A stretch of DNA of 64,000 bases from Alphaproteobacteria bacterium (GTDB lineage Bacteria > Pseudomonadota > Alphaproteobacteria > JANQMY01), in contig JANQPL010000011.1 in NCBI GenBank assembly GCA_028289425.1, forward strand, positions 124,001 through 188,000. Direction: 5' to 3'. Numbering within the stretch: position 1 is the stretch's first letter; each line of letters begins with the position of its first letter. The notes below the pieces were generated by a model. It saw only the letters and a list, made by a program, of their open reading frames with translations, ran no database searches and was not told where the DNA came from. The position numbers and the translations under genes were made by a program. Of this stretch, positions 2,532-60,391 are shown one piece after another.

Positions 2532-2642
2532 CCATCCCACTCCCCCGTCCCGTGAACCTTGTCCTCGGGCCGCGCACAGCGCGGACCCGGGGGCACCCGA
2601 TAAGGGTCCCCTAGGGGTGGCTGGGACGGGGGAGTGGGATGG
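2532..2642. repeat. Large hairpin repeat, copy A (expanded loop)
   Basis: A 20-bp perfect inverted repeat (arms 2532-2551 and 2623-2642, beginning CCATCCCACTCCCCCGTCCC) encloses about 70 bp. The enclosed part holds a second GC-rich hairpin around 2560-2590 and a segment at 2592-2622 related to the inner part of the three other copies. It lies between two same-strand genes and has no run of T after the stem, so it is not a normal terminator. Same family as 13501-13577, 17002-17074 and 60315-60391. Confidence 0.85.
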
Positions 2643-2783
2643 CTAAGCCAACAAAACAAAGCCGCATTCGTACTTAAGGAATAGGACTTAACTATCCCGC
2701 TTCCCCCTTTTATCCACGCGCGACTTTTGCTAGGCATGTGTCCCATTCCACACCATCCATCCAATCAATAACGGGGGGCACGC

Positions 2784-3368
2784 ATGCGGGCGATCTGGGC
2801 TCTTGTTTTCATCTTTGCACTGACGGCATGTGATACCGACCAGGCCAACTATGAATGGGTCGACTGGACGATCATGGATCACAAGAGTGCGGAGGGGAAA
2901 ACATCGCGCTATTTCGTTGCCTTTGCAGGCAATCCAAACGGCAACACGGTGATGAACGACGCCGGCGCCGACAACTATTTTGCAAAGACCCCCGACACCT
3001 TCCGGTCGCGCGAAGTGGGCGAAGGACCGGCCACGGCGGACATCATCCGCACCTATGGCGGCGAACGAACGGGGCGCCAGGAATTCTCTTTCTCCAAACC
3101 CGTGGACGACCCCATCATCGCCATCTTAAGCCTGGGCAACAGTGACGATGCAGCGCGCTTGATATTCGAGAAAGATGTGGAACTCATCAAAAGCGGCCCG
3201 GGGCATTGGGGCGGTCATGAGGACTCACTGGCCGTCAGCGACGACAACAAAACCGTTATCGGCAAGGAAGGCTACGGGCTTATCAAGATTCCCGGCACCC
3301 ACCGGGCGATCGGCTTCACCACGCCCGATTATGAGGGCGATTACGGCTTCCAGATCGCGATTAGGTGA
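2784..3368 (+). CDS. Predicted lipoprotein of unknown function
   Basis: A 194-residue protein starting MRAIWALVFIFALTACD. The lipobox LTAC puts the lipidated Cys at residue 16, so the mature protein is a membrane-anchored periplasmic or outer-membrane lipoprotein. The body is beta-rich and polar with no domain I recognise; the segment with FSKPVDDPIIAILSLGNSDDAA and the end YEGDYGFQIAIR suggest a jelly-roll or sandwich fold, but that is a guess. It stands alone between hairpin copy A and a cupin gene on the other strand. AACGGGGGGC upstream of the ATG is a good ribosome site. No function is assigned. Confidence 0.75.
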   Translation: MRAIWALVFIFALTACDTDQANYEWVDWTIMDHKSAEGKTSRYFVAFAGNPNGNTVMNDAGADNYFAKTPDTFRSREVGEGPATADIIRTYGGERTGRQEFSFSKPVDDPIIAILSLGNSDDAARLIFEKDVELIKSGPGHWGGHEDSLAVSDDNKTVIGKEGYGLIKIPGTHRAIGFTTPDYEGDYGFQIAIR

Positions 3369-3405
3369 TTGTTCCGCCTAACGGCGGGACGGCTAAATTG
3401 TTCAA

Positions 3406-3774
3406 TCACAATGGCCGGTGTTCACCTCCCGGACCAGGCGTTATGTGGATGAGCTGCGTAGGCTCTTCGATCAGCACCCGGTGCCAGATACCTTTCGGCA
3501 CAACTACCGCTTCGCCGGCAGCAAGGGCTGTTCGCTCTTCGCCGTTCTCCATTTCCATCACCACGGTGACGCGCCCGGAAATCACGTATAGGAGTTCGTC
3601 CCCATCCGGATGCATTTCGCCCCCATGAGGGGGCGTTTGCGTCAACTTCGGCGCACCAACAACAAAGCCGTCCACCCGCCTGGGGCCGTGATTTCTTCCA
3701 TGAAATCTCCCTACGTCCGACGAGCCATCGCGAAACAAGCCGACCGTTGTGTCCGCCAACGCAATCTTTGCCAT
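3406..3774 (-). CDS. Small cupin-domain protein
   Basis: A 122-residue single-domain cupin. Motif 1 is visible as GGEMHPDGDELLYVISGRV (His, Asp and Glu positions of the metal site) and motif 2 as VVPKGIWHRVLIEEP with its His. Proteins of this size bind a metal and act as small dioxygenases, isomerases or ligand sensors; the sequence does not say which. It is divergent from the VOC gene at 3881, with about 105 bp between the two starts, so the two may share a control region. Its 3' end faces the lipoprotein gene. Confidence 0.82.
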   Translation of the reverse strand: MAKIALADTTVGLFRDGSSDVGRFHGRNHGPRRVDGFVVGAPKLTQTPPHGGEMHPDGDELLYVISGRVTVVMEMENGEERTALAAGEAVVVPKGIWHRVLIEEPTQLIHITPGPGGEHRPL

Positions 3775-3880
3775 GTCGCCACCTCAGCTTTGTGTTTGAC
3801 CGCTACTCCAATGTTAGGTCGCGGTTGCCCCATCGTCGATCCGGCTGTTAGCGTAGCCGAAAAATAGAGGAGACAGGGAA

Positions 3881-4639
3881 ATGTGGCTGCGCTTACGGCA
3901 AATCGCGTTGGTGGCGGAGAAGCTCGCCCCGGTCGAACGACAATTATGTGACGTGCTCGGCATTGAGGTTTGCTACCGAGACCCCGGTGTGGGCCATTTC
4001 GGCCTGGAAAACGCACTCATGCCCATCGGCAACCAATTGCTGGAAGTGGTGGCGCCCATTCAAGAGAACACGGCGGGGGGCCGCTATCTGGACCGGCGCG
4101 GCGGCGATGGCGGCTATATGGTGATCACCCAATGCAATGATCACATGCCCCAGCGGGCGCGCGTAGACGAGATGGGCGTGCGGATCGCTTACAAATTCGA
4201 CCGGGATGACTATCGGTGCATGCAGCTCCACCCCAAAGACACAGGCGCGACCTTCTTCGAAATCGACGAGCAGCTTGGCGAGAACGCCCACGCGCCCGAC
4301 GGTCCGTGGGAACCGGCGGGCCCGGACTGGCAGCGCGCGAAAAAGACCGACCGCGTCACCGGCATTGTGGCCGCCGAACTTCAATGCGACGACCCCGCAT
4401 CCGTGGGTGCCAAATGGGCCGAGATCGCCGAGTTGCCAGTGAGCGGCAGCCATACCATCGAGCTTGAAAACGCCACATTGCGCTTTGTTCCGTGTACCGA
4501 TGGGCGCCCGGAAGGCCTGGGCGGCATCGATGTGACCTGCGCCGACAAAGCCGCGGTGCTGGCGGCAGCGGATGCCATCGGCGCAAAGCGCAGCGATACT
4601 CAAGTCTATCTTTGCGGCATGCGCATCAATTTGGTCTGA
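3881..4639 (+). CDS. VOC / glyoxalase-like protein (two-module)
   Basis: A 252-residue protein of the Glyoxalase_3-like VOC type. The N-terminal module starts LRLRQIALVAEKLAPVERQLCDVLG and holds FGLENALMPIGNQLLEVVAPI, the usual beta-alpha-beta-beta-beta pattern; a second, weaker module begins near residue 155 (VTGIVAAELQCDDPASVGAKW). Family members are metal enzymes (dioxygenases, isomerases, glyoxalases) or ligand binders; the reaction here is not inferable. GAGGAGACAGG is a strong ribosome site before the ATG. It is followed four bases later by a methyltransferase, so the two are probably cotranscribed. Confidence 0.8.
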   Translation: MWLRLRQIALVAEKLAPVERQLCDVLGIEVCYRDPGVGHFGLENALMPIGNQLLEVVAPIQENTAGGRYLDRRGGDGGYMVITQCNDHMPQRARVDEMGVRIAYKFDRDDYRCMQLHPKDTGATFFEIDEQLGENAHAPDGPWEPAGPDWQRAKKTDRVTGIVAAELQCDDPASVGAKWAEIAELPVSGSHTIELENATLRFVPCTDGRPEGLGGIDVTCADKAAVLAAADAIGAKRSDTQVYLCGMRINLV

Positions 4640-4643
4640 CCGC

Positions 4644-5261
4644 GTGACGACCCGTTTTCCGGGGACAGAAGGCTATGCCCAAGAAGCGCCCCAGCTTCTG
4701 CAACGTTACGAAGCCTTCCCATTTGAAGAGGCCCACAAGCGGGTCACTAATCTGATACCGCAAGACCCTGGATGCGTCCTTGATATCGGGGCAGGCACCG
4801 GCCGCGACGCCGCGTATCTGGCTGATAACGGCCACCATGTGACGGCGGTCGAACCCACTGATGAATTGCGCGAAGGGGGCCGGAAGCTGCACCCATCGCC
4901 ACTTATCGAATGGGTCGCAGACGGGCTGCCCTGTCTCACATCGATCGCAAACCGAAAGGATAGGTACGAGCTGGTCATGATGACGGCGGTGTGGATGCAC
5001 CTCAATGAAGCGGAACGGGCGCAGGCCATGCCCGTTGTCGCAACACTTCTCAAGCCGGGCTGCCACCTCATTCTATCATTGCGCCATGGACCGGTGCCGG
5101 AGGGCCGGCGCATGTTCGCGGTGACCGCCGATGAAACCATCCAACTGGCCGCCGCCGAAAGACTTCGCCCAATCCTGAATATTCATACGGAGGCATTGCA
5201 GGAGCCAAACCGAAGTGCCGGGGTGACCTGGACGCGGCTGGCATTTCTTAAACCCAACTAA
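4644..5261 (+). CDS. Class I SAM-dependent methyltransferase
   Basis: A Rossmann methyltransferase of 205 residues. Motif I is VLDIGAGTGRDAAYLAD, followed by VTAVEPTDELREGG for the acidic end of strand 2 and ELVMMTAVWMHL for motif IV. The GTG at 4644 is preferred because it lies just after the stop of the upstream VOC gene; an ATG in frame at 4572 would overlap that gene by 68 bp. Substrate unknown. Its coupling to the VOC gene suggests small-molecule modification. It ends 10 bp from the stop of a convergent GNAT gene. Confidence 0.82.
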   Translation: MTTRFPGTEGYAQEAPQLLQRYEAFPFEEAHKRVTNLIPQDPGCVLDIGAGTGRDAAYLADNGHHVTAVEPTDELREGGRKLHPSPLIEWVADGLPCLTSIANRKDRYELVMMTAVWMHLNEAERAQAMPVVATLLKPGCHLILSLRHGPVPEGRRMFAVTADETIQLAAAERLRPILNIHTEALQEPNRSAGVTWTRLAFLKPN

Positions 5262-5270
5262 ACGCGTTTC

Positions 5271-6104
5271 CTACAGATGCACCTCGCCTGCGCGGGAGAA
5301 GATGCGGAATGGTGCCACATGACGGAAGCCGAGTTTCTCGTAAAGCGTGACCGCCATGGGTGTTGAGTGCAGCACCAGCAAATCGATCCCGGTACCGCAA
5401 GATTCCCGCAGGGCGTGTTCGCAAATGGCTCGCCCGACACCGCGGCCCCGCGCTTCTTCCCGCGTCGCCACACCGTAAAGACCGACCACATTGTCCTTGC
5501 GATAGGTAAACGCCTTGCCCACCGCCTTGCCGTCCAGCAACGCAAGCCAGCCGCGCAAGGGCACCCCCGCACGGCCGATGCGATTTTCCCGGAAGAAACG
5601 CGTAATCAAGGCCCGGTCCTGCGGCGGCACCGCCCAGCGATGGGTGACGAATTCGGTGGTCGGTCCTTCTTCGTCGGGCCCGATGGGCACGAAGGAGATG
5701 TCCGGCGGCGGTGGCGAGTTCGCGATTAGCCCGGCGGGTGTGGTTACCATGCCGGGACACACTTCCACCTCTTCAAAGCCGCGGTCCCGAAGGCGACGAT
5801 CCAGATCGGCCGGCCGGGCGGTCGGGTGGACCACCCAAAAATGATCCACTTGGCGCGCGTCATAGGCCGCGATAATGGCATCGATTTTAGCGTCCACATC
5901 CCCCGCCTCGATGAAACGGAAGACCCCGTTATAGGGAAATGTGGCGATCGGTGTTTGAAGCCGGTATACGCCGCCGTCGCGCAAAAAATTGCAGCCCTCG
6001 GGCACACCGAATTGGGACCATTGGGCCCACAAATTCTCCTCTAAAGCCGAAATCTCATAGGGCACTTGGGTCACGCGCGCCTCGCCTGCCAACGCTGTTT
6101 TCAT
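5271..6104 (-). CDS. GNAT-family N-acetyltransferase
   Basis: A 277-residue protein with a C-terminal GNAT domain (about residues 140-277). The acetyl-CoA loop is seen in GVATREEARGRGVGRAICEHAL and the C-terminal ALTLYEKLGF-type motif as MAVTLYEKLGFRHV. The N-terminal half (DARQVDHFWVVHPTARPADLDRRL) resembles the partial GNAT-like half of two-domain acetyltransferases. The start at 6104 (MKTALAG) is chosen; a longer frame to 6137 has no clear ribosome site. Acceptor unknown. It is divergent from the lipoprotein gene at 6161. Confidence 0.82.
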   Translation of the reverse strand: MKTALAGEARVTQVPYEISALEENLWAQWSQFGVPEGCNFLRDGGVYRLQTPIATFPYNGVFRFIEAGDVDAKIDAIIAAYDARQVDHFWVVHPTARPADLDRRLRDRGFEEVEVCPGMVTTPAGLIANSPPPPDISFVPIGPDEEGPTTEFVTHRWAVPPQDRALITRFFRENRIGRAGVPLRGWLALLDGKAVGKAFTYRKDNVVGLYGVATREEARGRGVGRAICEHALRESCGTGIDLLVLHSTPMAVTLYEKLGFRHVAPFRIFSRAGEVHL

Positions 6105-6160
6105 CTTTTTGTGGGATATGGCATGTGTAAGACACAATCACAATGGAAGGGGCCCCGGAA

Positions 6161-6877
6161 ATGCGGACCATCGCGCGGATCATCGCCGCAATGATTGTCA
6201 TCGGCCCGGTCGTTGCGGGCTGCGATCAAGAGCCGGAGCCAACGGCGTCCACCCCGGCGGCGGAGCCCACCGCCCCTTCCCAAGCACCGGACGCGGCACC
6301 GGCACCCTCTGACGAAACGCTCAAAGCCCGCGCCTTCACGGCGCTCCTGCGCGAAAAAGTGGTGGCGCTCAATGAAGCCCTCATCCGCGAGCGCACGACG
6401 GACATGGACCAGCCGGCCATCGAAAAATTTGTGAATGCCACCGTCAACGAGTTGAGCCAATGCAGCGGCCTGCGGGCCGCCCAAGCTGTGACCTACAGGG
6501 CGGCGGGGCGTGAGGACGCCAAGGCCTATGAGACCAGATCAAGTGAGCTGGAGGCGCATCTCTATCTTTTCGTTCGGGCAACAGGCCGCCTGTTCGAAAA
6601 GCCCGATCTGGAAGCCGGGCTGCGCGAGGACTTGAAGTCCAAAGCGCAAACCATCGTGCAACAGCACCGGTTAAGTCTGGGCACGGACAGAAGCGATGAA
6701 CAAGCGGCCGAGCTGGCCGCATGGGAAGAACGCTGCAGCAACACGGAATCCGTTTTGAAGACGGATGTGGAGCGGCGCGCGAAGGAGCAGATCACGCCGG
6801 AAGAGGTCGCACAGCGGGTGCAGACTTTACAGGCCGCCGCAACCGAAAGCACCGGCGACACGCCTTCGTCAAACTAG
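6161..6877 (+). CDS. Helical lipoprotein, paralogue of the protein at 7457
   Basis: A 238-residue lipoprotein: a hydrophobic leader ends in VAGC, giving a lipidated Cys at residue 21, then a Pro/Ala-rich linker of about 35 residues and a helical body. The body shares ordered positions with the product of 7457-8077: LIR.RT, L.QC, R.AQA, A.AY, LE.HL, RA.GR, PDLEA and WEERC. Two cysteines (in SQC and ERC) are conserved between the two and could form a disulfide. The ATG at 6161 is preferred to the one at 6143 because GAAGGGG precedes it. No known domain is recognised. Confidence 0.72.
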   Translation: MRTIARIIAAMIVIGPVVAGCDQEPEPTASTPAAEPTAPSQAPDAAPAPSDETLKARAFTALLREKVVALNEALIRERTTDMDQPAIEKFVNATVNELSQCSGLRAAQAVTYRAAGREDAKAYETRSSELEAHLYLFVRATGRLFEKPDLEAGLREDLKSKAQTIVQQHRLSLGTDRSDEQAAELAAWEERCSNTESVLKTDVERRAKEQITPEEVAQRVQTLQAAATESTGDTPSSN

Positions 6878-6906
6878 GGCGTTTCATGGTCATATTGAAA
6901 CGCTCT
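6876..6906. repeat. Short hairpin, possible terminator-like palindrome
   Basis: AGGGCGTTTCA and TGAAACGCTCT form an 11-bp stem with one G-T wobble around a 9-base loop. It overlaps the stop of the lipoprotein gene and lies between convergent genes, a usual place for a terminator, but no T-run follows. A close relative lies at 26057-26087, where a T-A pair of the stem is replaced by C-G, so the structure looks conserved. Confidence 0.55.
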
Positions 6907-7360
6907 AAGATCGAAGGCCGATCACTTCGTTCAACATGACCAAGTAACCATCGGGATCTTGCACGAATATCTCGCGCTGACCCTTCTCCACATTGCCTGT
7001 CTGCCGCCATACCTCGCGCGGGCCGTCATAAAGCGGCCATTGGACGGCCTCTAGCCGCGCTTCGACCGCGGATAGCTTGTCCACTTGAAGCTGAAACATG
7101 ATGCCCCGGCCGAACGGGCGGGTAAGCGGTGCGGTTTCCCAGTTGCCGCTGCGTTGACACAGCATGATCTGCGCCCCGTCCAATTCCAGATAGGCAAACG
7201 CCTGTTCCGGCCGCCGATAGGCGATGGAAAAACCGATCACATCGCACCAGAACGCAAGGCTTTGGCTTAGATCTTCCACCAGCAATTCGCAGACGAGTCT
7301 CGACCAGCCCCCTTCCGGCGGCTGCCCTTGGCCTGACGAGTTTGCGTCATCGGTCGCCAT
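6905..7360 (-). CDS. VOC-family (bleomycin-resistance-like) protein
   Basis: A 151-residue single VOC module: RLVCELLVEDLSQSLAFWCDVIGFSIAYRRPEQAFAYLELDGAQIML, then GRGIMFQLQVDKLSAVEARL and EIFVQDPDGYLVMLNEV. It resembles the bleomycin-resistance branch, small dimeric binders or glyoxalase-like enzymes. The start at 7360 (MATDDAN) is used; the frame stays open to 7555 but that extension would run into the next gene and is low-complexity. It lies between the two paralogous secreted helical proteins on the opposite strand, which suggests it was caught up in, or predates, that duplication. Confidence 0.8.
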   Translation of the reverse strand: MATDDANSSGQGQPPEGGWSRLVCELLVEDLSQSLAFWCDVIGFSIAYRRPEQAFAYLELDGAQIMLCQRSGNWETAPLTRPFGRGIMFQLQVDKLSAVEARLEAVQWPLYDGPREVWRQTGNVEKGQREIFVQDPDGYLVMLNEVIGLRS

Positions 7361-7456
7361 CGCTATAGTGTCTTTCCAGGGCCGGTACGTGGGTGAGCAT
7401 CGACAAAAGAATCGATGCCATGGGACACAGTATGGGCCTGAAAGGGACGACACTCT

Positions 7457-8077
7457 ATGAAAAATCTCGTGGGCGTATTGGCCGGCATGGTGCTGAGCGC
7501 GGCTGCCTATGCGCAGGAGTACACGGAAAACCAGCGGCTGGAGGCGGAAGAACAAGCCAAACGTGAATTGTTGCGCGCCGAGATTGTTGAAATCAACAAA
7601 GATTTAATTCGTGTACGCACGATTACGCTCGACGAAGAGGGCACCAAACAATTTATCAGCACGTCCATGTCGGACCTGACCCAATGCGGTGCGTTTCGCG
7701 TGGCTCAGGCCAGGGCGCTGGAGGAAGCGCAATCGCCCGACGCGGATGCCTACAGGGATCAAGGGGCCTATTTGGAGATGCACCTTCTTCTGCTCGCCCG
7801 CGCGGCGGGCCGAGTTTTGGGCGAGCCCGATCTTGAAGCTCAAATCAAAAAAGAGCTGGCGGACAAAGGAACCGATTGGATCAAGCGGCACTATCAAGCG
7901 ATCGCCTATGAAACCGATGCCCAAAAAGAGCATGTGGACTATTGGGAAGAGCGTTGCACCCAAATGGAAGAAAACCTAAGCCGCCAGTTGGATACGCGTG
8001 CCCAAAACCAAGTGACGGCCGACGCCATCAACGAGCGCACGGCAGCGTTACTCGAAGAAACAAGCGCGAACCGCTGA
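7457..8077 (+). CDS. Secreted helical protein, paralogue of the lipoprotein at 6161
   Basis: A 206-residue protein with a normal signal peptide (MKNLVGVLAGMVLSAAAYAQ, cut after AYA) rather than a lipobox. The mature part is helical and charged, with the same ordered motifs as the lipoprotein at 6161: LIRVRT, LTQCGAFRVAQA, DADAY, LEMHLLLLARAAGR, PDLEAQI and WEERC. The two conserved cysteines may pair. So one copy is free in the periplasm and one membrane-bound. Function unknown. Its start lies about 100 bp from the start of the divergent VOC gene. Confidence 0.75.
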   Translation: MKNLVGVLAGMVLSAAAYAQEYTENQRLEAEEQAKRELLRAEIVEINKDLIRVRTITLDEEGTKQFISTSMSDLTQCGAFRVAQARALEEAQSPDADAYRDQGAYLEMHLLLLARAAGRVLGEPDLEAQIKKELADKGTDWIKRHYQAIAYETDAQKEHVDYWEERCTQMEENLSRQLDTRAQNQVTADAINERTAALLEETSANR

Positions 8078-8304
8078 CCCGGCGCCTTGCATGGCGCGCG
8101 CCCGTTCTGTTATGACCTAAGGGCAATTGGGGCCACCGCGGGACCGCCGTCCGCCAACCTCTTCGGCGGCACCTTCCGCAGTTACCACCGAAACGGCACG
8201 ACAAACGGGTCGACCTGACACGCTGCCCTAACCGTCATTGGCGCCCGCAACTGAGCGGGCCACGCAGCGTGTGCGTCAAGCCGACCGCACGGAAACGCGA
8301 CACC

Positions 8305-10077
8305 ATGAGCGCAGAAACGGAACAGGCTCAAGCCGAGCTGTCCGAACAACACCGCTTTCTCCGGGGAAACTACCTGGCGATGCTGGCCCATGGGCTGTTG
8401 GGGCAGACCGGCTTTCGGCTGATCATGGCGCCCACTTTCGTGCCCGCCTATATCTTCGTTCTGTCGGGTTCGGAATTGGTGGTGGGGGTGGCGCTCGCCG
8501 CCCAGCATGTGGGATCGGCGTTGTCGTCCTTGCCCGGCGGCACGTTCCTCGAAAGCCGCAGGCGGGTTTTGCCCATGTTGTTCCTGGCGGGCGGCCTGAT
8601 GCGTTCTCAAATTCTCGTGATTGCGCTGGCCGGCTTGTTCCTGACCGGCAGCGCGGCCTTGGCCGTCACCCTGCTTGCCCTTTTTCTGTTCGGCCTGTTC
8701 ATCGGCATGCAGGGCGTCACCTTCCAAACCCTGCTGGGCAAGATCATCCCGGTGGAAGTGCGCGGCGGCCTGACGGGCTTCCGCAATTCCACGGCGGGCC
8801 TTGTTTCCGCCGGCGTGGCGTTTACAGGCGGCACCTATTTCATCGAAGCAAATACCTGGGGCAATGGCTATGCGGTGACTTTCTTGGTCGCCTTCTCCCT
8901 CACCATGCTGGGCATGGCGACCTTGATATTCGTCCGTGAACCGACGGATGTGCCGGTACGCGCGTCTTCCGGCTTTCGCGACCGCATGCGCGAAATGCCG
9001 GCCCTGCTGCGCGGGGACCGGGCCTATACAGCCTTTGTCTTGGCCCGTTCCGTCGCTGCCATCGGCGTGATGGCGGTGCCCTTTTACGTGCTCTATGCGG
9101 GCGACCGCATCGGCTTGACCGGCGAGACGGTCGGCGTTTTGTCGGTGGCCTTCTTGCTCGCGGCCACCGTCAGCGACCTCATGTGGGGATTGATGGCCGA
9201 CCGCACGGGCAACCGGCTGGTGTTCCTGGTGTCGGTGGGCCTGTGGGCCGCAGCCACATTGGCGCTCATGATGGTGCCGCCGACCGTTTTCTGGATGATG
9301 CTGGTTTTTGCCGTCATTGGCATCGGCATGGGGGGGTATCAGATCGGCTCCATCAATCTGATCCTGGAATTCGGCGACCAAGAAGACCGGCCCATGCGCA
9401 TCGCCATTGCCAACACAGCCAATTCCTTGATGTTTGCCAGCGCACCACTGGTGGGTGGCTTGCTGACCCTCGCGGTGTCCTATCCGGTGATCTTCATTTT
9501 GGCGAGCACAGCGCAATTGGCGGCGCTGTTCGTCATGGCGACACTGGTGGACGAGCCGCGCCATCGGGAAAGCTATCGCAGCATCGAAGATGCCGAAGGC
9601 GACCCCTTCCGCGATGTGATGGCCGCTTTGCGGCTTGCATCGCTAAAGCCTGATGTGGACGCCATTGAAGCCTTGCGCAAAGTGGCGGTGAAGGAGGGCT
9701 ATACCTTCTTGGACCGGCTGGTGAACCATTGGAAAAGCGGCCGCCATGGCTTCGGACATCCGGGCGAACGGCTGATTGGCGCTTATGACGGCACCACACT
9801 GATCGGCCTCGGTTGCCTCACCCAAGATCCGCGTACGGAGGATCAGCGCGTTGGACTCATTCGACACTTTTATGTGCTACCCAATTACCGCCGCCATGGC
9901 GTCGGCCGCGAGCTGGTGGAAGCGATGACGGCAAATGCCGGCGAGAATTTCGACCAGATCCGCACCACACCCGATAGCGCCGGCGCTGCAAAGTTTCTAA
10001 ACCGAATGGGCTTTGAGCGCATCGATGCCGATGACGCGAGCCATGTGTTGAGACTTTCAAACACCCCTCAGCAGTGA
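8305..10077 (+). CDS. MFS transporter fused to a C-terminal GNAT domain
   Basis: A 590-residue fusion. Residues about 20-425 form an MFS carrier with roughly 12 hydrophobic spans and a loop of LMADRTGNRLVF type between halves. After VDEPRHRESYRSIEDAEGD a soluble domain begins; RLIGAYDGTTLIGLGCL, LIRHFYVLPNYRRHGVG and AAKFLNRMGFERI are the beta4, acetyl-CoA loop and C-terminal motifs of a GNAT. The reading frame is continuous with no sign of a frameshift. A transporter that acetylates its cargo or is regulated by acetylation is an inference. The ATG at 8305 is preferred to the GTG-like start at 8269 because the extra 12 residues are basic and unconserved in look. The next gene follows after 35 bp. 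Confidence 0.82.
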   Translation: MSAETEQAQAELSEQHRFLRGNYLAMLAHGLLGQTGFRLIMAPTFVPAYIFVLSGSELVVGVALAAQHVGSALSSLPGGTFLESRRRVLPMLFLAGGLMRSQILVIALAGLFLTGSAALAVTLLALFLFGLFIGMQGVTFQTLLGKIIPVEVRGGLTGFRNSTAGLVSAGVAFTGGTYFIEANTWGNGYAVTFLVAFSLTMLGMATLIFVREPTDVPVRASSGFRDRMREMPALLRGDRAYTAFVLARSVAAIGVMAVPFYVLYAGDRIGLTGETVGVLSVAFLLAATVSDLMWGLMADRTGNRLVFLVSVGLWAAATLALMMVPPTVFWMMLVFAVIGIGMGGYQIGSINLILEFGDQEDRPMRIAIANTANSLMFASAPLVGGLLTLAVSYPVIFILASTAQLAALFVMATLVDEPRHRESYRSIEDAEGDPFRDVMAALRLASLKPDVDAIEALRKVAVKEGYTFLDRLVNHWKSGRHGFGHPGERLIGAYDGTTLIGLGCLTQDPRTEDQRVGLIRHFYVLPNYRRHGVGRELVEAMTANAGENFDQIRTTPDSAGAAKFLNRMGFERIDADDASHVLRLSNTPQQ

Positions 10078-10112
10078 TAGCCAAGGACCAGACCGTCACT
10101 GAGGAGAGCGTT

Positions 10113-10598
10113 ATGGAAGCGGAGACGGAACTAATCCTTGAAGGCGGCTGCACGTGCGGTGCCGTACGCTATCGCGTCCGGGCACCGGCGATGTTCGTGC
10201 ATTGCTGTCACTGCACGTGGTGCCAGCGCGAGACCGGGTCGGCTTTTGCCGTCAACGCGCTTATCGAAGCGGAACGGGTTGAGGTCACCAAGGGTACGCC
10301 CGTTCAGGTCACCTTACCGTCGGCCAGCGGCCAAGGGCAGGTCTTCACGCGCTGCGCCGACTGCGGCGTTACTTTGTGGAGCAATTATGCCGCCGCCAAA
10401 GACAAAGTGCATTTCCTGCGGGTGGGGACCTTGGACGACCCGGCCCGAATGCCGCCGGACATCCACATTTTCACCTCCACCAAGCAGCCCTGGGTGGCGT
10501 TGCCGGACGGCGTGCCCGCCGTCGAAGAATATTACCGGCGCTCGGCCCATTGGCCGGCGGCGAGCGTTGCGCGCTACAAAGCAGCCTTAGGGCAATAG
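10113..10598 (+). CDS. GFA-family zinc protein
   Basis: A 161-residue protein of the Gfa/CENP-V fold. Zinc ligands appear as GGCTCGAVRYR, then VHCCHCTWCQRETGSAF, and CADCGVTLW, the normal spacing for two zinc sites. Family members were first described as glutathione-dependent formaldehyde-activating enzymes, but most are of unknown role. The start at 10113 has GAGGAG eight bases upstream; a GTG at 10074 overlapping the stop of the MFS-GNAT gene is in frame but has no such site. It is probably cotranscribed with that gene. Confidence 0.87.
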   Translation: MEAETELILEGGCTCGAVRYRVRAPAMFVHCCHCTWCQRETGSAFAVNALIEAERVEVTKGTPVQVTLPSASGQGQVFTRCADCGVTLWSNYAAAKDKVHFLRVGTLDDPARMPPDIHIFTSTKQPWVALPDGVPAVEEYYRRSAHWPAASVARYKAALGQ

Positions 10599-10814
10599 CG
10601 CCGTCCTGGCGTGCGTGGGCTATTGTGTCCCCTTTATTCACCCATAGGAATGACAGCACGACCAACGTCACCCAATCGTGCGGCACCATCGTTTGTTGGA
10701 CGCCCGGTTCCATTGCCGCCTCCGATCCGAGTCGGCGGACTATAGGACGGAACTGGAGCAATATTTTTCCGTTTCTTGCGGCGGAATTGCCTATTCAAAG
10801 CATAGGTTGTCTAC

Positions 10815-10930
10815 GTAGGGTGCGTTAGCCTGCCTGCGCGAAGCCGAAGCTTCGCTTCGGCAAAGGCAGGCGCAGCGTAACGCACCTCAACGGAAAAGGC
10901 GCATTACGCCATCCGGCTAATGCGGCCTAC
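10815..10930. repeat. REP-like composite palindrome (BIME-like)
   Basis: Two palindromic modules side by side. The first (10815-10887) runs GTAGGGTGCGTTAG to TAACGCACCT with an inner GAAGC/GCTTC stem; the second (10899-10930) pairs GGCGCATTA and TAATGCGGCC around CCATCCGGC. The outer ends, GTAGGGTGCGTTAG and (reverse strand) GTAGGCCGCATTAG, are near-copies in inverted orientation, the layout of two REP units in a BIME. REP units of this GTAG type are known to be moved by RAYT transposases; none is in this window. The right end lies inside a parE-like frame. Confidence 0.7.
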
Positions 10931-10999
10931 ATACTTGGCGATGTACTCGCGAATTTGGTGAAGATCATCTAAGGCCTGCGGCGAGAACCTAGCGTGCAT
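10904..10999 (-). pseudogene. Truncated ParE/RelE-family toxin, cut by the REP-like repeat
   Basis: From the ATG at 10999 the frame reads MHARFSPQALDDLHQIREY, a good match to the N-terminus of ParE-type toxins (basic strand, then a helix with DL..I..YI). It then enters the REP-like repeat and stops after 31 codons, where a full ParE has about 95. The start overlaps the stop of the antitoxin gene, as is usual for these pairs. The remaining C-terminal two thirds with the toxin active surface are absent from the following DNA, so no working toxin is expected. Confidence 0.65.
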
Positions 11000-11177
11000 C
11001 GTATCCGAATTGGGCAGCTACTTGTCGGAAATCGGTATAGCGGGCGCCGTCAGCCTTGTCCTTCAGCGCAAGCCGAACTTGCTGCCGAAACCATGCATCA
11101 TAGCCGGGCGATTTTTCCATGTGGAAGTTTTCGGTCAATTCCTCAAAACTTGGAATGGGATGTGTGGTTTCGCTCAT
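10989..11177 (-). CDS. Orphan antitoxin-like 'stability determinant' protein
   Basis: A 62-residue acidic-basic protein (MSETTHPIPSFEELTENFHM...) whose start and KSPGYDAWFRQQVRLAL core resemble the small partner found in front of ParE-type toxins in alphaproteobacteria, often labelled a stability determinant. It overlaps the start of the toxin remnant by 11 bases, the normal order for such a pair. With the toxin cut short it is a relic or a free antitoxin. The identification rests on recalled resemblance and on the neighbouring ParE remnant. Confidence 0.6.
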   Translation of the reverse strand: MSETTHPIPSFEELTENFHMEKSPGYDAWFRQQVRLALKDKADGARYTDFRQVAAQFGYDAR

Positions 11178-11274
11178 AAGTGGAAGAGTGCTGCAAATCG
11201 ATGATCAAATCCATAATCGTCAGGCAATGTCGGGCGCACTTATTTAGAACTGTAAAGCTGTAGGTCGTTGGAAC

Positions 11275-11655
11275 GTGACCGACCCAGGCTGGAAAGGTTT
11301 CTTTTTTGTCGCCGCTTTGTTCAATTTCGGCGCTGCGGGGGCGTTTCTGCTGGTGCCGGATCTGCTGTACCAACTCCTCGGCATCACGGGCACGGCGCCA
11401 GCCACTGGATTGTACTCAGACGCCTTTGCCGTGATGGCGGGAATTTTCGGCCTGGGCTATTGGTGGGTGGCAGCGGACCCAGCCGCCAACCGCAACCTCA
11501 TCTGGCTGGGTGTGATCGGCAAGACCGCCATTGTGCTGGTGTTTTGGGTGCATGCGCTGGCCTATGGCGCGCCGCTGGCGCTGGCGCTGCTCATCTCGCT
11601 CGATATCGTGTTCGCTGTTATGTTCTGGATCTATCTGACCCACGCGACCCAATAA
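11275..11655 (+). CDS. Small four-helix membrane protein
   Basis: A 126-residue integral membrane protein with about four hydrophobic spans (residues 9-30, 46-65, 75-95, 100-122) and short polar loops. The tight GAAGAFLLVPDLLYQLLG pattern and size are typical of small uncharacterised membrane proteins. The start is a GTG at 11275 (MTDPGWKG); no upstream ATG is in frame. Thirteen bases after its stop begins the PNPOx-like gene, so the two are probably one transcript. No function can be given. Confidence 0.68.
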   Translation: MTDPGWKGFFFVAALFNFGAAGAFLLVPDLLYQLLGITGTAPATGLYSDAFAVMAGIFGLGYWWVAADPAANRNLIWLGVIGKTAIVLVFWVHALAYGAPLALALLISLDIVFAVMFWIYLTHATQ

Positions 11656-11668
11656 TACCAACTGTGAT

Positions 11669-12127
11669 ATGCCCATCCTTACACCAGATATGAAAAGCGT
11701 CGTCGCCCAGCAGAGATTGGGTTTTATGGCGACCGTGGGCGCGGACGGCACGCCGAACCTATCGCCCAAGGGTCAAACATTCGTGCTTGATGACGATCAT
11801 ATTGTCGTCGGCGATGTGCGCTCGCCGCAAACGCGGAAGAACTTAAGCCACCAGCCTGTCGCAGAAATCAATGTGGTGGACCCGATGGCCCGCAAAGGGT
11901 TCCGGTTCAAAGGTCCGTGTACAGTGGTTTCCGACGGGGAGCAGTACGAAGAACTGGTAGCGTTTCTCAAAGCACAAGGCGCGATAGCGACACCCAACGC
12001 CGTGATGGTCATGAAGGTGGAACGCGTACTGCCGCTGATCTCGCCGGGCTATGACACGGGTATTTCGGAAGAAGACATGCGCCTCCGGTGGAAAGGGCAT
12101 TACGACGATTTGAATTCGGATCTTTAG
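11669..12127 (+). CDS. Pyridoxamine 5'-phosphate oxidase-like flavin-binding protein
   Basis: A 152-residue split-barrel protein: LGFMATVGADGTPNLSPKGQTFVLDDDHIVVGDVRSPQTRKNL is the typical start of PNPOx-family proteins, and FRFKGPCTVVSDG fits the central barrel. Family members bind FMN or F420 and reduce small molecules; those as small as this are usually not real PdxH enzymes. The C-terminal RLRWKGHYDDL is variable. It follows the small membrane protein by 13 bp and converges on the GNAT gene downstream. Confidence 0.8.
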   Translation: MPILTPDMKSVVAQQRLGFMATVGADGTPNLSPKGQTFVLDDDHIVVGDVRSPQTRKNLSHQPVAEINVVDPMARKGFRFKGPCTVVSDGEQYEELVAFLKAQGAIATPNAVMVMKVERVLPLISPGYDTGISEEDMRLRWKGHYDDLNSDL

Positions 12128-12137
12128 CGCGGAGCGG

Positions 12138-12614
12138 TCAAGACAGCGGTTTGGTCGCCCAAGTACACACATTGTCGAGGCCTTTGCGCGCCAAAATCTC
12201 GTGCTTGTCCGCATCGTGGAGGACCGCAACGCACACCACTTGAGCTGCGCCGGCCGCCAGAGCCGCTTCCTCGACGGCCTCAAACAGCGCTTCCAAAATA
12301 GCCAGCCGGTCCGGGCGGGGGAGCACCACCCAATCGTCCACCAGATAGCTGGGACCGCCCGGTGCGAAGACCGGCGGGGCCGTGTCCGTTGCGATCACGA
12401 ACCCTAGGAGCTGATCGCCCTCCGTCGCGACAAACGCGCGGGTTGAGGCTTGGCCCAACAAATGATCGAAGAATGCATTCGTCATTTCCTGCGCAGTGTC
12501 CGACGGGCGCCAATAGACCGGCCTGCGTGCGGCCAAGTCCTTCCGCTCTTCGGTAATCAGCGCCACCATTTCGGGAAGGTCGCCGGTGTCGGCGGGCCGC
12601 ACATCTATCGGCAT
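12138..12614 (-). CDS. GNAT-family N-acetyltransferase
   Basis: A 158-residue single-domain GNAT. IDVRPADTGDLPEMVALITEE is the first strand-helix of the fold, DQLLGFVIATDTAPP is strand 4, and YLVDDWVVLPRPDRLAILEALF replaces the usual R/Q-x-x-G-x-G/A loop with a less canonical sequence. The C-terminus HEILARKGLDNVCTWATKPL fits the final strand pair. The start at 12614 has GGAAAC upstream; a longer frame runs to 12659 but would overlap the gene before it. It follows that gene by 19 bp on the same strand. Acceptor unknown. Confidence 0.76.
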   Translation of the reverse strand: MPIDVRPADTGDLPEMVALITEERKDLAARRPVYWRPSDTAQEMTNAFFDHLLGQASTRAFVATEGDQLLGFVIATDTAPPVFAPGGPSYLVDDWVVLPRPDRLAILEALFEAVEEAALAAGAAQVVCVAVLHDADKHEILARKGLDNVCTWATKPLS

Positions 12615-12633
12615 TGTGTTTCCTTTCAAGCGG

Positions 12634-13242
12634 TTATGTGCGGTGGAGCCAGGCGGCAAGTGCCGTCACCCGCTCCTCCTTGCTCCATTTGCCCGAGGCA
12701 GGTTTAAGCGATTTCACATGAGTGTCGAGCGCCTCAACCGTTTGCTTGCGGCGCTTTGCGGCTTCTTCCCAAGTGGACTTTTCGTCTTGGCCAACCTGAT
12801 CGATCTTCAGACTACGGAGGGCTACGCGCGTTGCTTCACGAATGGCTCCCCCTTCGGCCACGTGAATGTGCGCGTGCGAGCCCAAAATGTCTTCCAGATC
12901 ATCATGCACGATCCCGCGGGTGGTGAGCACCACCGCCCGGGTCCAGCAGAACCCGTCCGCCGTGAGTTGATCGCGAAAGGTTCTGAGCACTTTGGTGGCG
13001 GATTTTTCCTGCGCCTTACGGCCGCGTGCGATGACCGCTTGCGGGTCCTTCGGCCGCGGCACTTGGGTCAAGTCCCGCCAGCCGCCGGCCACGTGATAGG
13101 GTTCGCGCACTTCGCGGTCGTCCGTATCGATGAGATCGACGCGCCGGGCGGGCAGCGGCGACAAGTCTTTGCCGTTCACCAACACCGGCACCGCATTGAC
13201 CCAACCCATATGCGCTTTGAAGGCAACGCAGACATTCTTCAT
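12634..13242 (-). CDS. Conserved-looking protein of unknown function
   Basis: A 202-residue soluble protein that I do not recognise. It starts MKNVCVAFKAHMGWVNAV and has a striking HAHIHVAEGGAIREATRVAL segment near residue 125 with three His and a Glu, which could bind metal, then a highly charged C-terminus rich in Lys and Glu. The frame is open to 13305, but that extension is low-complexity and the ATG at 13242 follows a plausible ribosome site (CCCCGTGAAAGACGCCCC in gene sense is weak). Probably cotranscribed with the GNAT gene 19 bp downstream. Confidence 0.65.
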   Translation of the reverse strand: MKNVCVAFKAHMGWVNAVPVLVNGKDLSPLPARRVDLIDTDDREVREPYHVAGGWRDLTQVPRPKDPQAVIARGRKAQEKSATKVLRTFRDQLTADGFCWTRAVVLTTRGIVHDDLEDILGSHAHIHVAEGGAIREATRVALRSLKIDQVGQDEKSTWEEAAKRRKQTVEALDTHVKSLKPASGKWSKEERVTALAAWLHRT

Positions 13243-13339
13243 GGGGCGTCTTTCACGGGGCACCTCCTCCGCCCGCAGTTTAGGCGTGGCGGCGGGCGCT
13301 CTCAATCGATCTTGCGCGCGGATCGTGATAGACTGGCGC

Positions 13340-13430
13340 CCAAGGGGAGGCCTGACAAAAGGGTCTCACATGGAAGACCGAGCACATTACAATTCATTAA
13401 CCAAAAGACCCCAGCGGGGTCTTTTTGTTT
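13340..13430 (+). ncRNA. Candidate small RNA ending at an orphan terminator
   Basis: There is no plus-strand protein gene upstream, yet a strong intrinsic terminator stands at 13403-13430. A weak promoter-like pair could start a transcript near 13335-13345. A reading frame MEDRAHYNSLTKRPQRGL crosses the terminator itself and looks accidental. A short RNA of roughly 90 bases is the simplest reading, but the start is a guess and no RNA family is recognised. Confidence 0.3.
13403..13430 (+). terminator. Intrinsic terminator with no evident gene
   Basis: AAAAGACCCC and GGGGTCTTTT form a 10-bp perfect stem around the loop AGC, followed by TTTGTTT (positions 13403-13412 and 13416-13425). This is the clearest rho-independent terminator in the window. 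Since the stem has A and T runs on both sides it could also act on the minus strand, but no minus-strand gene starts to its right. Confidence 0.8.
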
Positions 13431-13500
13431 TGGAGCGCAAGGAGGGGGTCTATCCTCAAAATTGGGATGAACCCCATGCACCCATCGTTGTTGATGGGCC

Positions 13501-13577
13501 CGGCCGGCCACTCCCCCTCCCAACCACCCGCCAGGGTACCGTATCCGGGTGGTTGGGAGGGGGAGTGGGCCGGCCAG
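13501..13577. repeat. Large hairpin repeat, copy B
   Basis: Arms 13503-13530 and 13548-13576 pair over about 28 bp with one base missing from the left arm; the core is ACTCCCCCTCCCAACCACCC against GGGTGGTTGGGAGGGGGAGT. The 17-base loop contains GGTACC. It is flanked by an imperfect direct repeat of about 30 bp whose best part, ACCCCATGCACCCATC, occurs at 13472-13487 and 13598-13613. No T-run follows. Located between divergently oriented genes, upstream of coaBC. Confidence 0.88.
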
Positions 13578-13751
13578 GTGTTCAAACAATGGATCTACCC
13601 CATGCACCCATCATTTTCAGGGCTCCAGCCGTGCCGCTTCGCTTAATCCCTTGTTTTTTCGGGCATCGCGCCTTATTTACAGCGTCAACTCGTAAAACCT
13701 GCTATTTTGCGGGGCGGTGGGGCGGCAAAGGCCCCGCGTCGGAAGGTGTTT

Positions 13752-14969
13752 ATGGCTGAAACGCTAAAAAACAACAGAATTCTGCTGATTATCGGCGGCG
13801 GTATCGCCGCTTACAAATGTCTGGACCTGATCCGGCGCCTACGAGAACGCGGCGCGGCCGTACGCGCCATCCTGACCCAAAGCGGCGAGCAATTCGTAAC
13901 ACCCCTGTCCGTGGCGAGCCTCACCGGCGACAAGGTCTATACGGACCTGTTTGACCTGACCGATGAAGCGGAAATGGGCCATATCCAGCTTTCCCGCGAC
14001 GCGGATTTGCTGGTGGTGGCGCCGGCCACGGCCGACATGATGGCGCGGATGGCGCAAGGGCTTGCCAATAATCTGGCGACCACGGCGCTGCTTGCCACCG
14101 ACAAGCCGGTGATGATCGCGCCCGCCATGAATGTGCGCATGTGGACGCACGCCGCCACCCAACGGAACCTGGCCACCCTATCCGCCGATGGGGTGACCAT
14201 TGTGGGCCCCAATGATGGGGATATGGCCTGTGGCGAGTTTGGGCCGGGCCGCATGGCGGAGCCGTTGGAAATCATCGCCGCCATCGAAAAGCACTTCGAA
14301 GGCGACGATGCGAAGCCGCTTTCCGGCAAGCGGGCGCTGGTCACCTCCGGCCCGACTCATGAGCCCTTGGATCCGGTGCGCTACATCGCCAACCGGTCAT
14401 CCGGCAAACAAGGTTACGCCGTCGCCGCTGCGCTTGCGGAAGCGGGCGCGCAGACCACGCTGGTCTCCGGCCCCACGAATTTAGCCGACCCCTTGGGCGT
14501 AACAACCGTCCGTGTGGAAACGGCCCAGGAAATGCTAGCGGCGTGCGAAAACGCTTTGCCCGCGGATGTGGCCATCTTCGCCGCGGCCGTTGCCGATTGG
14601 CGCGCCGACCGGCAAGCCAACAACAAGATCAAGAAGAACGGCGGCGGGGCCCCCAGCCTGTCGCTGGTGGAAAACCCGGACATTCTAGCAACCATCAGTC
14701 AACGGAAGAAAGGGCGTCCGTCGCTTGTGGTGGGATTCGCCGCCGAGACTGACAATGTGATCGATTACGCCACGAAGAAGCGCGCCAAAAAGAAATGCGA
14801 TTGGATCGTGGCGAACGACGTTTCCCCCGGCACCGGCATTATGGGTGGCGATGACAATACGGTGCACCTCATCACCGACAGCGGCCTTGAAAGCTGGGAC
14901 AAAATGACAAAAACACAAGTGGGTGCGGCGCTGGTTGCCCGCATTTCCCAACACTTTGATGGCGTCTGA
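13752..14969 (+). CDS. coaBC: CoaBC: phosphopantothenoylcysteine synthetase/decarboxylase
   Basis: A 405-residue bifunctional enzyme of coenzyme A synthesis. The N-terminal CoaC flavoprotein half (about 1-190) shows [20 protein letters not shown], the PXMNXXMW motif as PAMNVRMW, and the substrate-binding loop Cys in [13 protein letters not shown]. The C-terminal CoaB half starts at [20 protein letters not shown] and holds [15 protein letters not shown] and the later [12 protein letters not shown], the CTP/4-phosphopantothenate site. It makes 4-phosphopantetheine from phosphopantothenate, Cys and CTP. The start at 13752 has GGAAGGTG upstream. It heads the run coaBC-dut-rrf2-cysK-moeB; coaBC next to dut is a common bacterial order. 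Confidence 0.96.
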
Positions 14970-14992
14970 CGACAGGAATTCACAGGAAATAT

Positions 14993-15484
14993 ATGACCAC
15001 CCCCCAACCCTTCTCTATTCCCGTTCAAGTGCTGCCCCATGGCCAAGGCCTGCCGCTGCCGGCCTATGAAACCGACCAGGCAGCAGGCATGGACCTTGCC
15101 GCCGCCGTTCCGGCCGGCGACCCGATTGTTCTCGCGCCGGGCAAACGGGCTTTGGTGCCCACAGGGCTGACCCTGGAATTGCCGGAAGGTTTTGAAGCTC
15201 AAATCCGGCCGCGATCCGGCTTGGCCTTCAAAAGAGGGGTCACGGTGCTCAATTCCCCCGGCACGATCGATGCCGATTACCGCGGCGAGGTGGGCGTCTT
15301 GCTGATTAATCTGGGTGAGGAAGATTTCGTCATCAACCGGGGCGACCGGATTGCGCAGATGATTATCGCGCCGGTGACCCAAGGGCGACTGGAGGCTGTT
15401 TTGGAAGTCAACAACACCGCGCGCGGTGCCGGCGGCTTTGGCTCCACCGGCGTCGCCGCCCAAAGCTCCCTGAAGGAGGCGTAA
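14993..15484 (+). CDS. dut: dUTP diphosphatase
   Basis: A 163-residue trimeric dUTPase that converts dUTP to dUMP and keeps uracil out of DNA. All five motifs are visible: AGMDLAA (1), the PTGLTLELP region (2), [11 protein letters not shown] (3 with the Ser-Gly turn), [17 protein letters not shown] with the catalytic Asp and RIAQMII (4), and the C-terminal phosphate-binding arm [10 protein letters not shown] (5). Length is normal. It begins 23 bp after coaBC and is followed within four bases by the Rrf2 gene, so the three share a transcript. Confidence 0.96.
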
Positions 15485-15487
15485 GTC

Positions 15488-15940: not shown

Positions 15941-15985
15941 GACGTCTACGGACGACTGAACAAATCATAAGAAGAGGATCCGTTC

Positions 15986-16981: not shown

Positions 16982-17001
16982 GTCTTTGTTGACGAGCATC
17001 A

Positions 17002-26054: not shown

Positions 26055-26056
26055 TG

Positions 26057-60100: not shown

Positions 60101-60296
60101 CCCGCTCATCCTCGAACGTAGCGTTCAAGCGCAGTTCCTGGTGCCCACGGCGATCAGCATCGCTTTCGGCATTCTGTTCGGCACCTTGGTTTTGATGCTG
60201 CTGGTGCCGGCGCTGGCCATGGCGCAGCATGATCTGGGCAAGTCGATCTTCTTCTGGCGCAACCGCGACGACGAAACGCGCGTTCCCGCAGAATAA
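57114..60296 (+). CDS. RND efflux pump inner-membrane subunit
   Basis: A 1060-residue RND transporter with 12 spans and two large periplasmic loops. The proton relay Asp pair is D398-D399 in AIGIVVDDAIVAGENIF. The first loop has VSVEYQGATPKEIEESI and VEEQVEGIEGIQEI, typical of the hydrophobe/amphiphile exporter family. It drives drug or lipid-like export with the proton gradient; it looks like the broad AcrB-type group rather than a metal pump (no Met triads seen). It is cotranslated with the adaptor. Hairpin repeat D follows 18 bp after the stop. Confidence 0.95.
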   Translation: MNPIIAWFVRNGVAANLLMIFIIFAGISSAFTLPSKVFPEFGLDLVEVSVEYQGATPKEIEESIIQRVEEQVEGIEGIQEITATATENRGTVRIELARGENIQQRLDEVKSEIDRITTFPDEAEEPEVRELTNLARVVQIIVYGDAPERSLKELAYDIKDGLTEQPSISLVEVSGVRDYEISIEVSNDTLRARGLTLLDVAAAVRQGSLDLPGGDIQTRSEEVLLRTKGRNYNQQDFEDIVVIGEADGTQVLLKDIAVIKDGFRDTDLENRFNGQPAAFVEVYRVGEEKTLEIIQDVEKFLEEEVTPTLPPGLGVYLWDNDAEALNDRLSLLLKNGGIGLGLVIIALALFLDIRLAFWTTIGITIAFVGTLGLMSVLGLSINMMTLFGFILAIGIVVDDAIVAGENIFAENERGTPPMEAAILGAQRVSTPIIFAVATTIATFTPLLFIPSTIGKFLASVPAIVITVLFLSLVESLLILPRHLSHLGPQKTTWRNPAMLMLLQAQRGVSWGLSRFTDGPMRRALHFATDHWGVVISTGIAMIMLTYGFLAGGYLYFNFFPEVEGDIVTSAVELPQGSPVSETRKIAQLLQDKAVEAGKAMEADFDNLPDSVIQNMYVIVGGSPQSASPFGNQGGDGQSNQAYVLIEILGSEVRPFEAIEFEKYWRKAVGVVPGTKKLTFSSSLVSVGDPVQVEITAEDEVSLARATEFVQTELSRVDGIFDLFNDLEGSKREIELELKPEARTYGITVEQLAQQVRAAFFGSEALRVQRGREEVRVYVRLPEEERDTLTDLDDYRIRTPGGDFIPLSAVADVSFTYGPSTINRRNGKRVVSVTGSIDNTRITGTVAANVVSNQIVPRLNEQVSGITIGFGGSQREQARALPGLISNFMLALFSIYALLAMAFRSYVQPLIIMAAIPFGFIGAILGHALLDVNLTMLSIFGIVGLSGVIVNDALVMIDFVNEELEKGKPMREAIIDGALGRFRPILLTSITTFLGVFPLILERSVQAQFLVPTAISIAFGILFGTLVLMLLVPALAMAQHDLGKSIFFWRNRDDETRVPAE

Positions 60297-60314
60297 GGCT
60301 TTGTTAAGCTGACT

Positions 60315-60391
60315 TAGCCGGCCCACTCCCCCGTCCCAACCACCCGACAGTGTACCCTTGGGGTGGTTGGGACGGGGGAGTGGGCCGGCTA
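60315..60391. repeat. Large hairpin repeat, copy D
   Basis: A 31-bp perfect inverted repeat: arms 60315-60345 (TAGCCGGCCCACTCCCCCGT...) and 60361-60391, with a 15-base loop holding GTGTACCC. It sits between two convergent genes (the RND pump and an SDR). It is the longest and most regular copy in the window. It shares arms with the other copies except for a few changes matched on both sides. Confidence 0.92.

Follow-up and report, generated by a model that had tools for sequence, protein, structure and literature searches.

The 64,000-nucleotide stretch analysed here (the window: positions 124,001 to 188,000 of contig JANQPL010000011.1 in assembly GCA_028289425.1, Alphaproteobacteria bacterium) contains four copies of a large hairpin. 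They belong to a family of interspersed palindromes amplified in certain alphaproteobacterial lineages, and in our judgement the arms of these palindromes are probably rewritten from each other by template switching. Members of this family share an arm lattice, carry changes that are matched between the two arms, have loops in two orientations and, where no direct repeats flank them, lie mostly at the 3' ends of genes. Copies A (2532–2642, a long variant), B (13501–13577), C (17002–17074) and D (60315–60391), none of them assigned to a strand, were found where the first-pass annotation had placed them, in intergenic DNA as it had said, and its account of arms perfect over 20–31 bp but for one base missing in copy B (from the left arm) proved accurate. 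On the C-rich strand the middle of the arm reads GT in A, T in B, TG in C and GT in D, each matched on the opposite arm, which bears out for all four the earlier observation that the middle varies between copies while staying complementary within each. Compared with 200 dinucleotide shuffles, the copies fold with z values of -8.0 (A), -6.8 (B), -9.0 (C) and -12.0 (D), and no shuffle folded as well. The suggestion originally drawn from this pattern, that of a dispersed structural family copied through the hairpin, is one that the wider analysis supports.

The repeat unit measures about 75–110 bp and consists of a stem of about 24 or more pairs (24–31 bp) closed by a loop of mostly 15–20 nt that often contains GGNTANNCT. 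Its arms follow a lattice of C/G runs, 5'-CCC-N-C-N-CCCCC-N(1-2)-CCC-NN-CC-N-CCC, and on each strand a C-rich 5' arm, CC-NN-CCC-R-C-T-CCCCC-N(1-2)-CCC-AA-CC-A-CCC with more pairs outside, is followed by a G-rich 3' arm. A second variable dinucleotide, at which matching of the arms is less strict, lies directly outside the outer CCC. The element is inverted over nearly its full length and so has the terminal inverted repeat by which a miniature inverted-repeat transposable element (MITE) is recognised. In an alignment of 60 sequences (A3), made up of 59 of the 68 hairpins extracted from foreign genomes together with the window, the C/G runs are nearly constant and the intervening bases vary; this constancy is partly built in, as the extraction pattern imposed the runs CC-N-C-N-CCCCC and GGGGG-N-G-N-GG, while the middle, the inner block and the outer columns were not fixed by it. 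Four G3 runs are present in the 3' arm of 57 of the 60 rows. A short insert in one arm only, of the AAAGTC..TTGGCC type and partly hairpin-like, was seen in L077, L135 and L086 and at C17:62151 of this genome.

The window holds four of about 80 copies in this genome (G000). The exact pattern CCCACTCCCCC-N0-4-CCCAACCACCC has 54 matches in its 5.42 Mb, against none for the reversed control pattern, and a covariance model gave 149 strand-wise matches at E <= 0.001, corresponding to 80 places, among the best 150 of 1870 candidates that were scored; the 34 own copies on which the model was built are bound to match it, and the long-insert copy A is absent from its output. The situation that the first-pass annotation had named as fatal to the idea of a family, a genome with these four copies alone, thus does not apply. 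A census over the stretches fetched from this genome gave 90 raw rows, several of which were spuriously long, and the 84 rows of 48–110 bp were used; at least one false row (C14:31962) remains among those entering the context and linkage counts, and gene contexts come from a simple open reading frame (ORF) scorer without annotation. A 22-bp direct repeat, GGATnnACCCCATGCRCCCATC, flanks the hairpin on both sides in 29 of the 84 rows and on at least one side in 37, with the paired repeats spaced 123–129 bp apart in 27 of 36 cases and exactly 126 bp apart in 16. A second alignment (A1) comprises 34 of 37 own hairpins, and most of the genomes compared below are draft or metagenome assemblies.

Matching between arms far exceeds what chance pairing of arms gives. 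In this genome the 23-nt arms are identical in 34 of 73 copies; 20,000 re-pairings average 2.9 such copies and reach 11 at most. The outer dinucleotides are matched in 31 of 73, against 10.7 in re-pairings. Across A3, 94.1% of cells are paired (85.9% in shuffles), two-sided changes number 181 rather than 58.1 (none of 500 shuffles was as high), and covariation is 0.238, compared with 0.094 in shuffles and 0.017–0.047 in slid structures, a control that leans towards the consensus-derived structure. At columns 22, 23, 27 and 28 of A3 there are 31, 9, 15 and 9 two-sided changes, 0, 0, 0 and 1 one-sided changes, and 4, 0, 1 and 1 unpaired cells, or 64 two-sided changes to a single one-sided change when the four are combined; these columns include switches between G-C and U-A, which have no wobble intermediate. 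Column 31 has four two-sided changes, two one-sided changes and three unpaired cells. Changes of length are matched across the arms as well, with one or two bases in the middle and AA or AAA in the inner block. The rows with a matched middle fall mainly into a few types (GT 14, TT 11, GG 10, AT 5, TG 4), and rare matched block variants, CCCT/AGGG and AAACC/GGTTT, also occur.

Matched differences are likewise found at orthologous sites in the congener (G001), the sole genome of the same genus among the relatives drawn. Twenty of the 36 G001 hairpins in the fetched loci have both flanks on one stretch of our genome, and 19 of these were aligned (L157 was left out): 15 sites have a hairpin or a remnant in both species and four lack one in our genome, a share that is biased upward in that our stretches were chosen for holding repeats. 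The intergenic DNA of the two species is too diverged for a duplication to be read at the empty sites. Blocks were compared at 11 of the 19 sites, leaving out the four without an own hairpin, two with one-arm inserts, one long form and one half hairpin; at five of the 11 the middle differs between the species and yet is matched in both (for example GG in place of TT, or a single T in place of TT or GG). The idea that the window copies should be judged by the same positions in relatives gave a mixed outcome in the congener, where three sites were looked up: the site of copy C retains a hairpin with an identical middle, copy B has decayed and copy A is absent. The loop, for its part, occurs in both orientations in about equal numbers. 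Relative to the bracketing direct repeats, the 35 own copies of the direct-repeat type divide into 10 and 11, with two symmetric and 12 unparsed, and in another carrier, assembled as a single contig (G029), 11 usable copies read by eye against conserved, distinct flanks divide into five and six, two further places having other flanks and one not being included.

Template switching between the arms of an inverted repeat yields both arm homogenisation and spacer inversion according to PMC8604942, and PMC8794818 identifies it by the traces it leaves, multiple compensatory changes and inverted loops. Homogenised arms and an inverted spacer are both present here, and we favour this mechanism because arm matching and loop inversion both occur in quantity. 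We infer that the arms pair during replication and that the polymerase may then switch template between arm and counter-arm, so that one is rewritten from the other; such switching would keep the arms alike, would let substitutions and indels reach both arms in one step, and would invert the loop. Old sites would acquire new arm types by exchange between copies or by re-insertion, and copies without direct repeats would persist chiefly downstream of stop codons, a position in which a stable 3' hairpin may be tolerated or useful. The cases in the two studies are yeast genes and microRNA and rRNA genes, with the same arm homogenisation, compensatory changes and loop inversion; here, by contrast, the switching would act on a multi-copy bacterial repeat with long arms, in which both signatures can be counted together.

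A number of observations weigh against template switching. Compensatory changes accompanied by loop inversion are, according to PMC8794818, extremely rare in rRNA and show no enrichment there, and the authors find the role of template switching in stem maintenance less clear. Here the proposed switching is read from its products, and no event was caught in progress. Thirty blocks differ at the 11 orthologous sites, and 10 of them have matched arms in each of the two species while 20 do not; seven of those 20 are outer dinucleotides and one, the middle of the L166 pair, is a parser artefact. Column 14 of A3, which is comparably variable to the four columns above, has 23 two-sided changes, five one-sided changes and six unpaired cells; in A1 alone two of five measures are not above shuffles (pairs with a two-sided change, 362/500; pair types, 247/500); and the sequences of A3 are phylogenetically non-independent. 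Correction of the arms is incomplete, since at least one arm difference is present in 39 of the 73 own copies and the outer dinucleotides match in just the 31 already mentioned. The middle type is, moreover, linked to the loop type in our genome (p = 5e-6, 68 copies parsed), where one-base middles go with a single loop type and show a weak association with the direct repeats (p = 0.04). As middle types also recur across loci, these associations indicate that copies spread or exchange as whole units too, and whole-unit copying explains part of the pattern.

If whole-unit copying were the entire explanation, several already-matched master copies would have been transposed and their changes inherited, with nothing happening in place. 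The small set of recurring middle types, the linkage of one-base middles just described and the conserved outer flanks within G029 would all suit such a history, but it does not account for matched differences at five of 11 orthologous sites whose flanks still align, for both loop orientations within like flanks, or for the rare matched block variants, and we regard spread of subfamilies alone as rather improbable. Selection on structure is, we think, unlikely to be the main cause; under it the hairpin would act at transcript ends (as a bidirectional stop, an exonuclease block, or, as BIMEs do, a supercoil or gyrase site), and purging of unmatched arms would let compensatory pairs accumulate. 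Copies without direct repeats in this genome lie in 27 co-directional, 11 convergent and 8 divergent contexts, and in 28 of these 46 they lie 9–27 bp past a stop codon; the contexts in other genomes are 20 convergent, 31 co-directional and 6 divergent (n = 57), with divergent gaps depleted (p = 0.006), though convergent enrichment by itself is not significant (p = 0.10), the counts for other gaps in this comparison having been obtained by subtraction. Own copies of the direct-repeat type lie farther out (11 co-directional, 6 convergent, 11 divergent). A copy on the Sphingomonas sanguinis plasmid pNP2-R2 occupies a 163-bp convergent gap, many sites are retained between the congeners, the C/G lattice stays constant while the bases between may vary (a constancy subject to the extraction pattern), the four G3 runs of the 3' arm recur, and the one-sided changes at column 14 suit a stepwise path. 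Stepwise selection would not, however, predict the near absence of one-sided changes at columns 22, 23, 27 and 28, nor are matched indels and two loop orientations what it should leave behind; four G001 copies are absent at the matching place in our genome, and the patchy occurrence of the family speaks against an essential role. An intrinsic terminator was rejected on the missing U-tract: as the first-pass annotation had stated, there is none, the roughly 20 bases past the 3' arm holding no T-run of at least four in any of the four copies, whichever strand is read. T-rich sequence, moreover, tends to lie 5' of the hairpin and A-rich sequence 3' of it, the reverse of what an intrinsic terminator shows. 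Copies A–C were not listed in a terminator scan of window positions 1–20000, a weak test that allowed loops of only 3–8. A putative role at transcript ends is plausible.

We think it very improbable that the hairpin is a non-autonomous transposon, whether a MITE or a repetitive extragenic palindrome (REP), moved by a Y1/RAYT enzyme or some other hairpin-recognising transposase, with the 22-bp repeats as duplicated target. Its dispersal, inverted ends and patchy occurrence, its presence on two sphingomonad plasmids and the presence/absence differences between congeners are all features that a transposon would display, as are direct repeats bracketing 29 of 84 rows and the existence of single repeat copies (at C5:350406 and C9:57905 of G000). 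Matches to the Y1 family (PF01797) were obtained in seven of the 19 carriers tested, this genome included, and two of 12 Y1 loci have a hairpin on one side within 1.2 kb (about 0.4 kb away in G000 and about 1.1 kb in G400) where the rough expectation is about 0.3, which we treat as a weak lead. PF01797 had no match in the other 12 of the 19 carriers (one of five and 11 of 14 in the two sets, many of them incomplete metagenome assemblies), and none of the 12 Y1 loci, some of which are cut by contig ends, is flanked by a hairpin on both sides; a Y1/RAYT enzyme, a gene for which the first-pass annotation had thought worth seeking, is not supported as the general driver. The family also lacks a conserved GTAG or CGTC head, no short target duplication is evident by eye in the 46 copies without direct repeats, the Y1 gene of our genome adjoins a different inverted repeat, and the 12 largest groups of ORFs near the copies are, where seen in other genomes, a short-chain dehydrogenase, an acyl-CoA dehydrogenase, an enoyl-CoA hydratase or the syntenic coaBC region. 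At the Y1 locus of our genome (C19:351463, L268), the transposase gene lies beside its own inverted repeat, ATTTCGGTGACAGTGCACTAAATAG, unlike the hairpin family, with a hairpin about 0.4 kb downstream.

These ORF groups come from a search for an autonomous partner: after clustering of the ORFs from the 48 loci with pattern matches and from stretches of our own genome, the 12 largest groups were inspected. Groups 1, 2 and 6 are ORFs of our genome whose listed examples overlap the repeats; groups 3–5 are a short-chain dehydrogenase, an acyl-CoA dehydrogenase and an enoyl-CoA hydratase; group 7 is confined to our genome and has no Pfam match; and groups 8–12 are mostly the coaBC region common to L043, L067, L078 and the window. 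No transposase appears among the identified members of these 12 groups, Y1 being the sole family searched for. Some shared neighbour genes are expected by chance, because each genome has about 80 copies.

The direct repeats constitute a repeat family of their own, with 81 exact core matches in G000 and 50 in G001. The core reads CATGCG in the 50 listed from G001 and mostly CATGCA in G000, which suggests a concerted change of the direct repeats since the two species split. They could represent a duplicated target, or a repeat that recombines the hairpin out. The motif GCTCTTTGACA, which we take to be boxA-like, lies about 70–110 bases upstream of several direct repeats (L218, L221, L229 and L233). 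Palindromes of the form GTCRTCCCAGC..GCTGGGA, found near direct repeats in L218, L223, L228 and L233, resemble CGTC repeats by description, as far as these are set out in the relevant part of PMC3733652.

Beyond this genome, the arm lattice is present across several orders of Alphaproteobacteria, patchily and often in high copy number where it occurs. An exact-pattern scan of GTDB species genomes gave 48 stretches, assigned to Minwuiaceae, Hyphomicrobiales, Rhizobiaceae, Tepidamorphaceae, Kordiimonadaceae, Rhodospirillales and several sphingomonad genera, with the remaining titles bearing the class name only and one merely Pseudomonadota. A second model, built on 63 sequences, matched 23 of 24 genomes preselected for pattern matches, with one to at least 150 strand-wise matches per genome. 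In samples drawn irrespective of the repeat, the strict pattern occurs in five of 385 genomes of the class and the model at E <= 1e-7 in eight of 133 (best 32 candidates scored in each), this genome and its congener being among the carriers in either case; at the level of the phylum the model matched eight of 249 genomes (best 17 candidates scored in each), this genome included, and all eight are Alphaproteobacteria, in a sample whose share of other classes was not listed. Within one family of that sample (f13), the matches per genome number 0, 1, 2, 3 and, at the scoring cap, at least 17. A plasmid search with copy D found just two carriers, one Sphingomonas and one Novosphingobium plasmid, whereas the exact pattern had no match in IMG/VR and copy D none in the phage records searched, and on these two results a virus or phage origin was rejected. 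In the single-contig genome G029, the hairpins at 11596 and 23096 of contig C1 recur at 4604932 and 4616432, and because the offset is constant the contig ends appear to overlap by about 27.6 kb; seven of its 14 distinct hairpin places fall in roughly the first 320 kb of the contig, and the origin could not be located from sampled GC skew.

The first-pass annotation knew of no named family with this sequence, and none has come to light: Rfam gave no match at gathering score in the window, literature searches by arm sequence turned up no account of this bacterial repeat among the papers listed, and the family is apparently unnamed. Its nearest likeness is to REPs. In the part of PMC3733652 that describes them, CGTC REPs are interspersed palindromes, predominantly of Alphaproteobacteria, with an uneven distribution and no dedicated transposase found; they have an unpaired CGTC head, stems of 8–9 bp, loops of 4–5 nt and a CCA-like tail, and head-to-head dimers of them may form large hairpins. 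The present repeat resembles them as a patchy, interspersed palindrome of Alphaproteobacteria, but differs in its single 24–31 bp stem, its C/G-run lattice and its loop of mostly 15–20 nt, and no conserved head tetranucleotide was found, columns 3–6 outside the CC pair varying freely in the 60 sequences. GTAG REPs and REPINs, as portrayed in the pertinent part of PMC2817692, are high-copy palindromes outside genes whose palindromic features are preserved between variants and which have a head and RAYT genes; high copy number and extragenic palindromes are shared with our family, which, in contrast, lacks a GTAG/GTGG head, has far longer arms, and includes no Y1 gene with a hairpin on both sides among the 12 loci. 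The REPs of Sinorhizobium meliloti and other species, reported in the section of PMC1525189 concerned as insertion-sequence targets frequent between convergent genes, are alike in their convergent-gene position; this comparison is by description, not by consensus sequence. Because it has neither the head tags nor the stem size of the two REP super-families and shows no RAYT association, we file the element outside both, as an interspersed palindromic repeat working like large REP/MITE hairpins.

Copy A starts 7 bp downstream of the stop (at 2524) of a PQQ-dehydrogenase gene, and its perfect 20-bp outer arms (2532–2551 and 2623–2642) enclose a 71-nt insert, within which a nested second repeat, GTGAACCTTGTCCTCGGGCCGCGC...GGACCCGGGGGCAC, spans 2552–2597 without an assigned strand. 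This nested repeat is GC-rich and palindromic, lies on either side of the loop in long hairpin variants, and also occurs in other long copies (L004, L030 and L179–L181). Copy B, upstream of a coaBC-like gene, has a one-base middle and the loop CGCCAGGGTACCGTATCCG, and is bracketed by plus-strand copies of the 22-bp direct repeat, GGATGAACCCCATGCACCCATC at 13465–13486 on the left and GGATCTACCCCATGCACCCATC at 13591–13612 on the right, 126 bp apart. Copy C, with perfect arms of 28 bp, follows a PALP-type gene and lies just before a ThiF-family gene. The first GTG (17066) of the 272-amino-acid ORF that follows copy C would put its start inside the hairpin, so that a start just past the copy is the likelier one. 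Copy D, with arms of 31 bp, fills most of a 103-bp gap between an RND-transporter gene (end at 60296) and, convergent with it, a short-chain dehydrogenase gene (3' end at 60400).

Tentatively, and with more doubt than we attach to template switching of the arms, the element may be thought of as a hitherto unrecognised one, conserved in the form of its C/G-run spacing lattice while the bases in between are free to change in pairs. Template switching might maintain it together with selection at transcript ends, the selected feature being a switch between hairpin and G-quadruplex, and its own instability during replication might move it with no dedicated transposase needed; it might then serve as a natural multi-copy recorder of template switching. 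A multi-copy repeat of this kind can confuse the annotation of gene ends, terminators and small RNAs in Alphaproteobacteria. It is an open question whether long stems that stay paired while they change do so by two-step compensation or by one-step template switching. Since this family offers dozens of copies in a genome, spans many lineages and has orthologous sites in a congener, arm matching, matched indels and loop inversion can be counted together in it, which makes the two models separable in bacteria.

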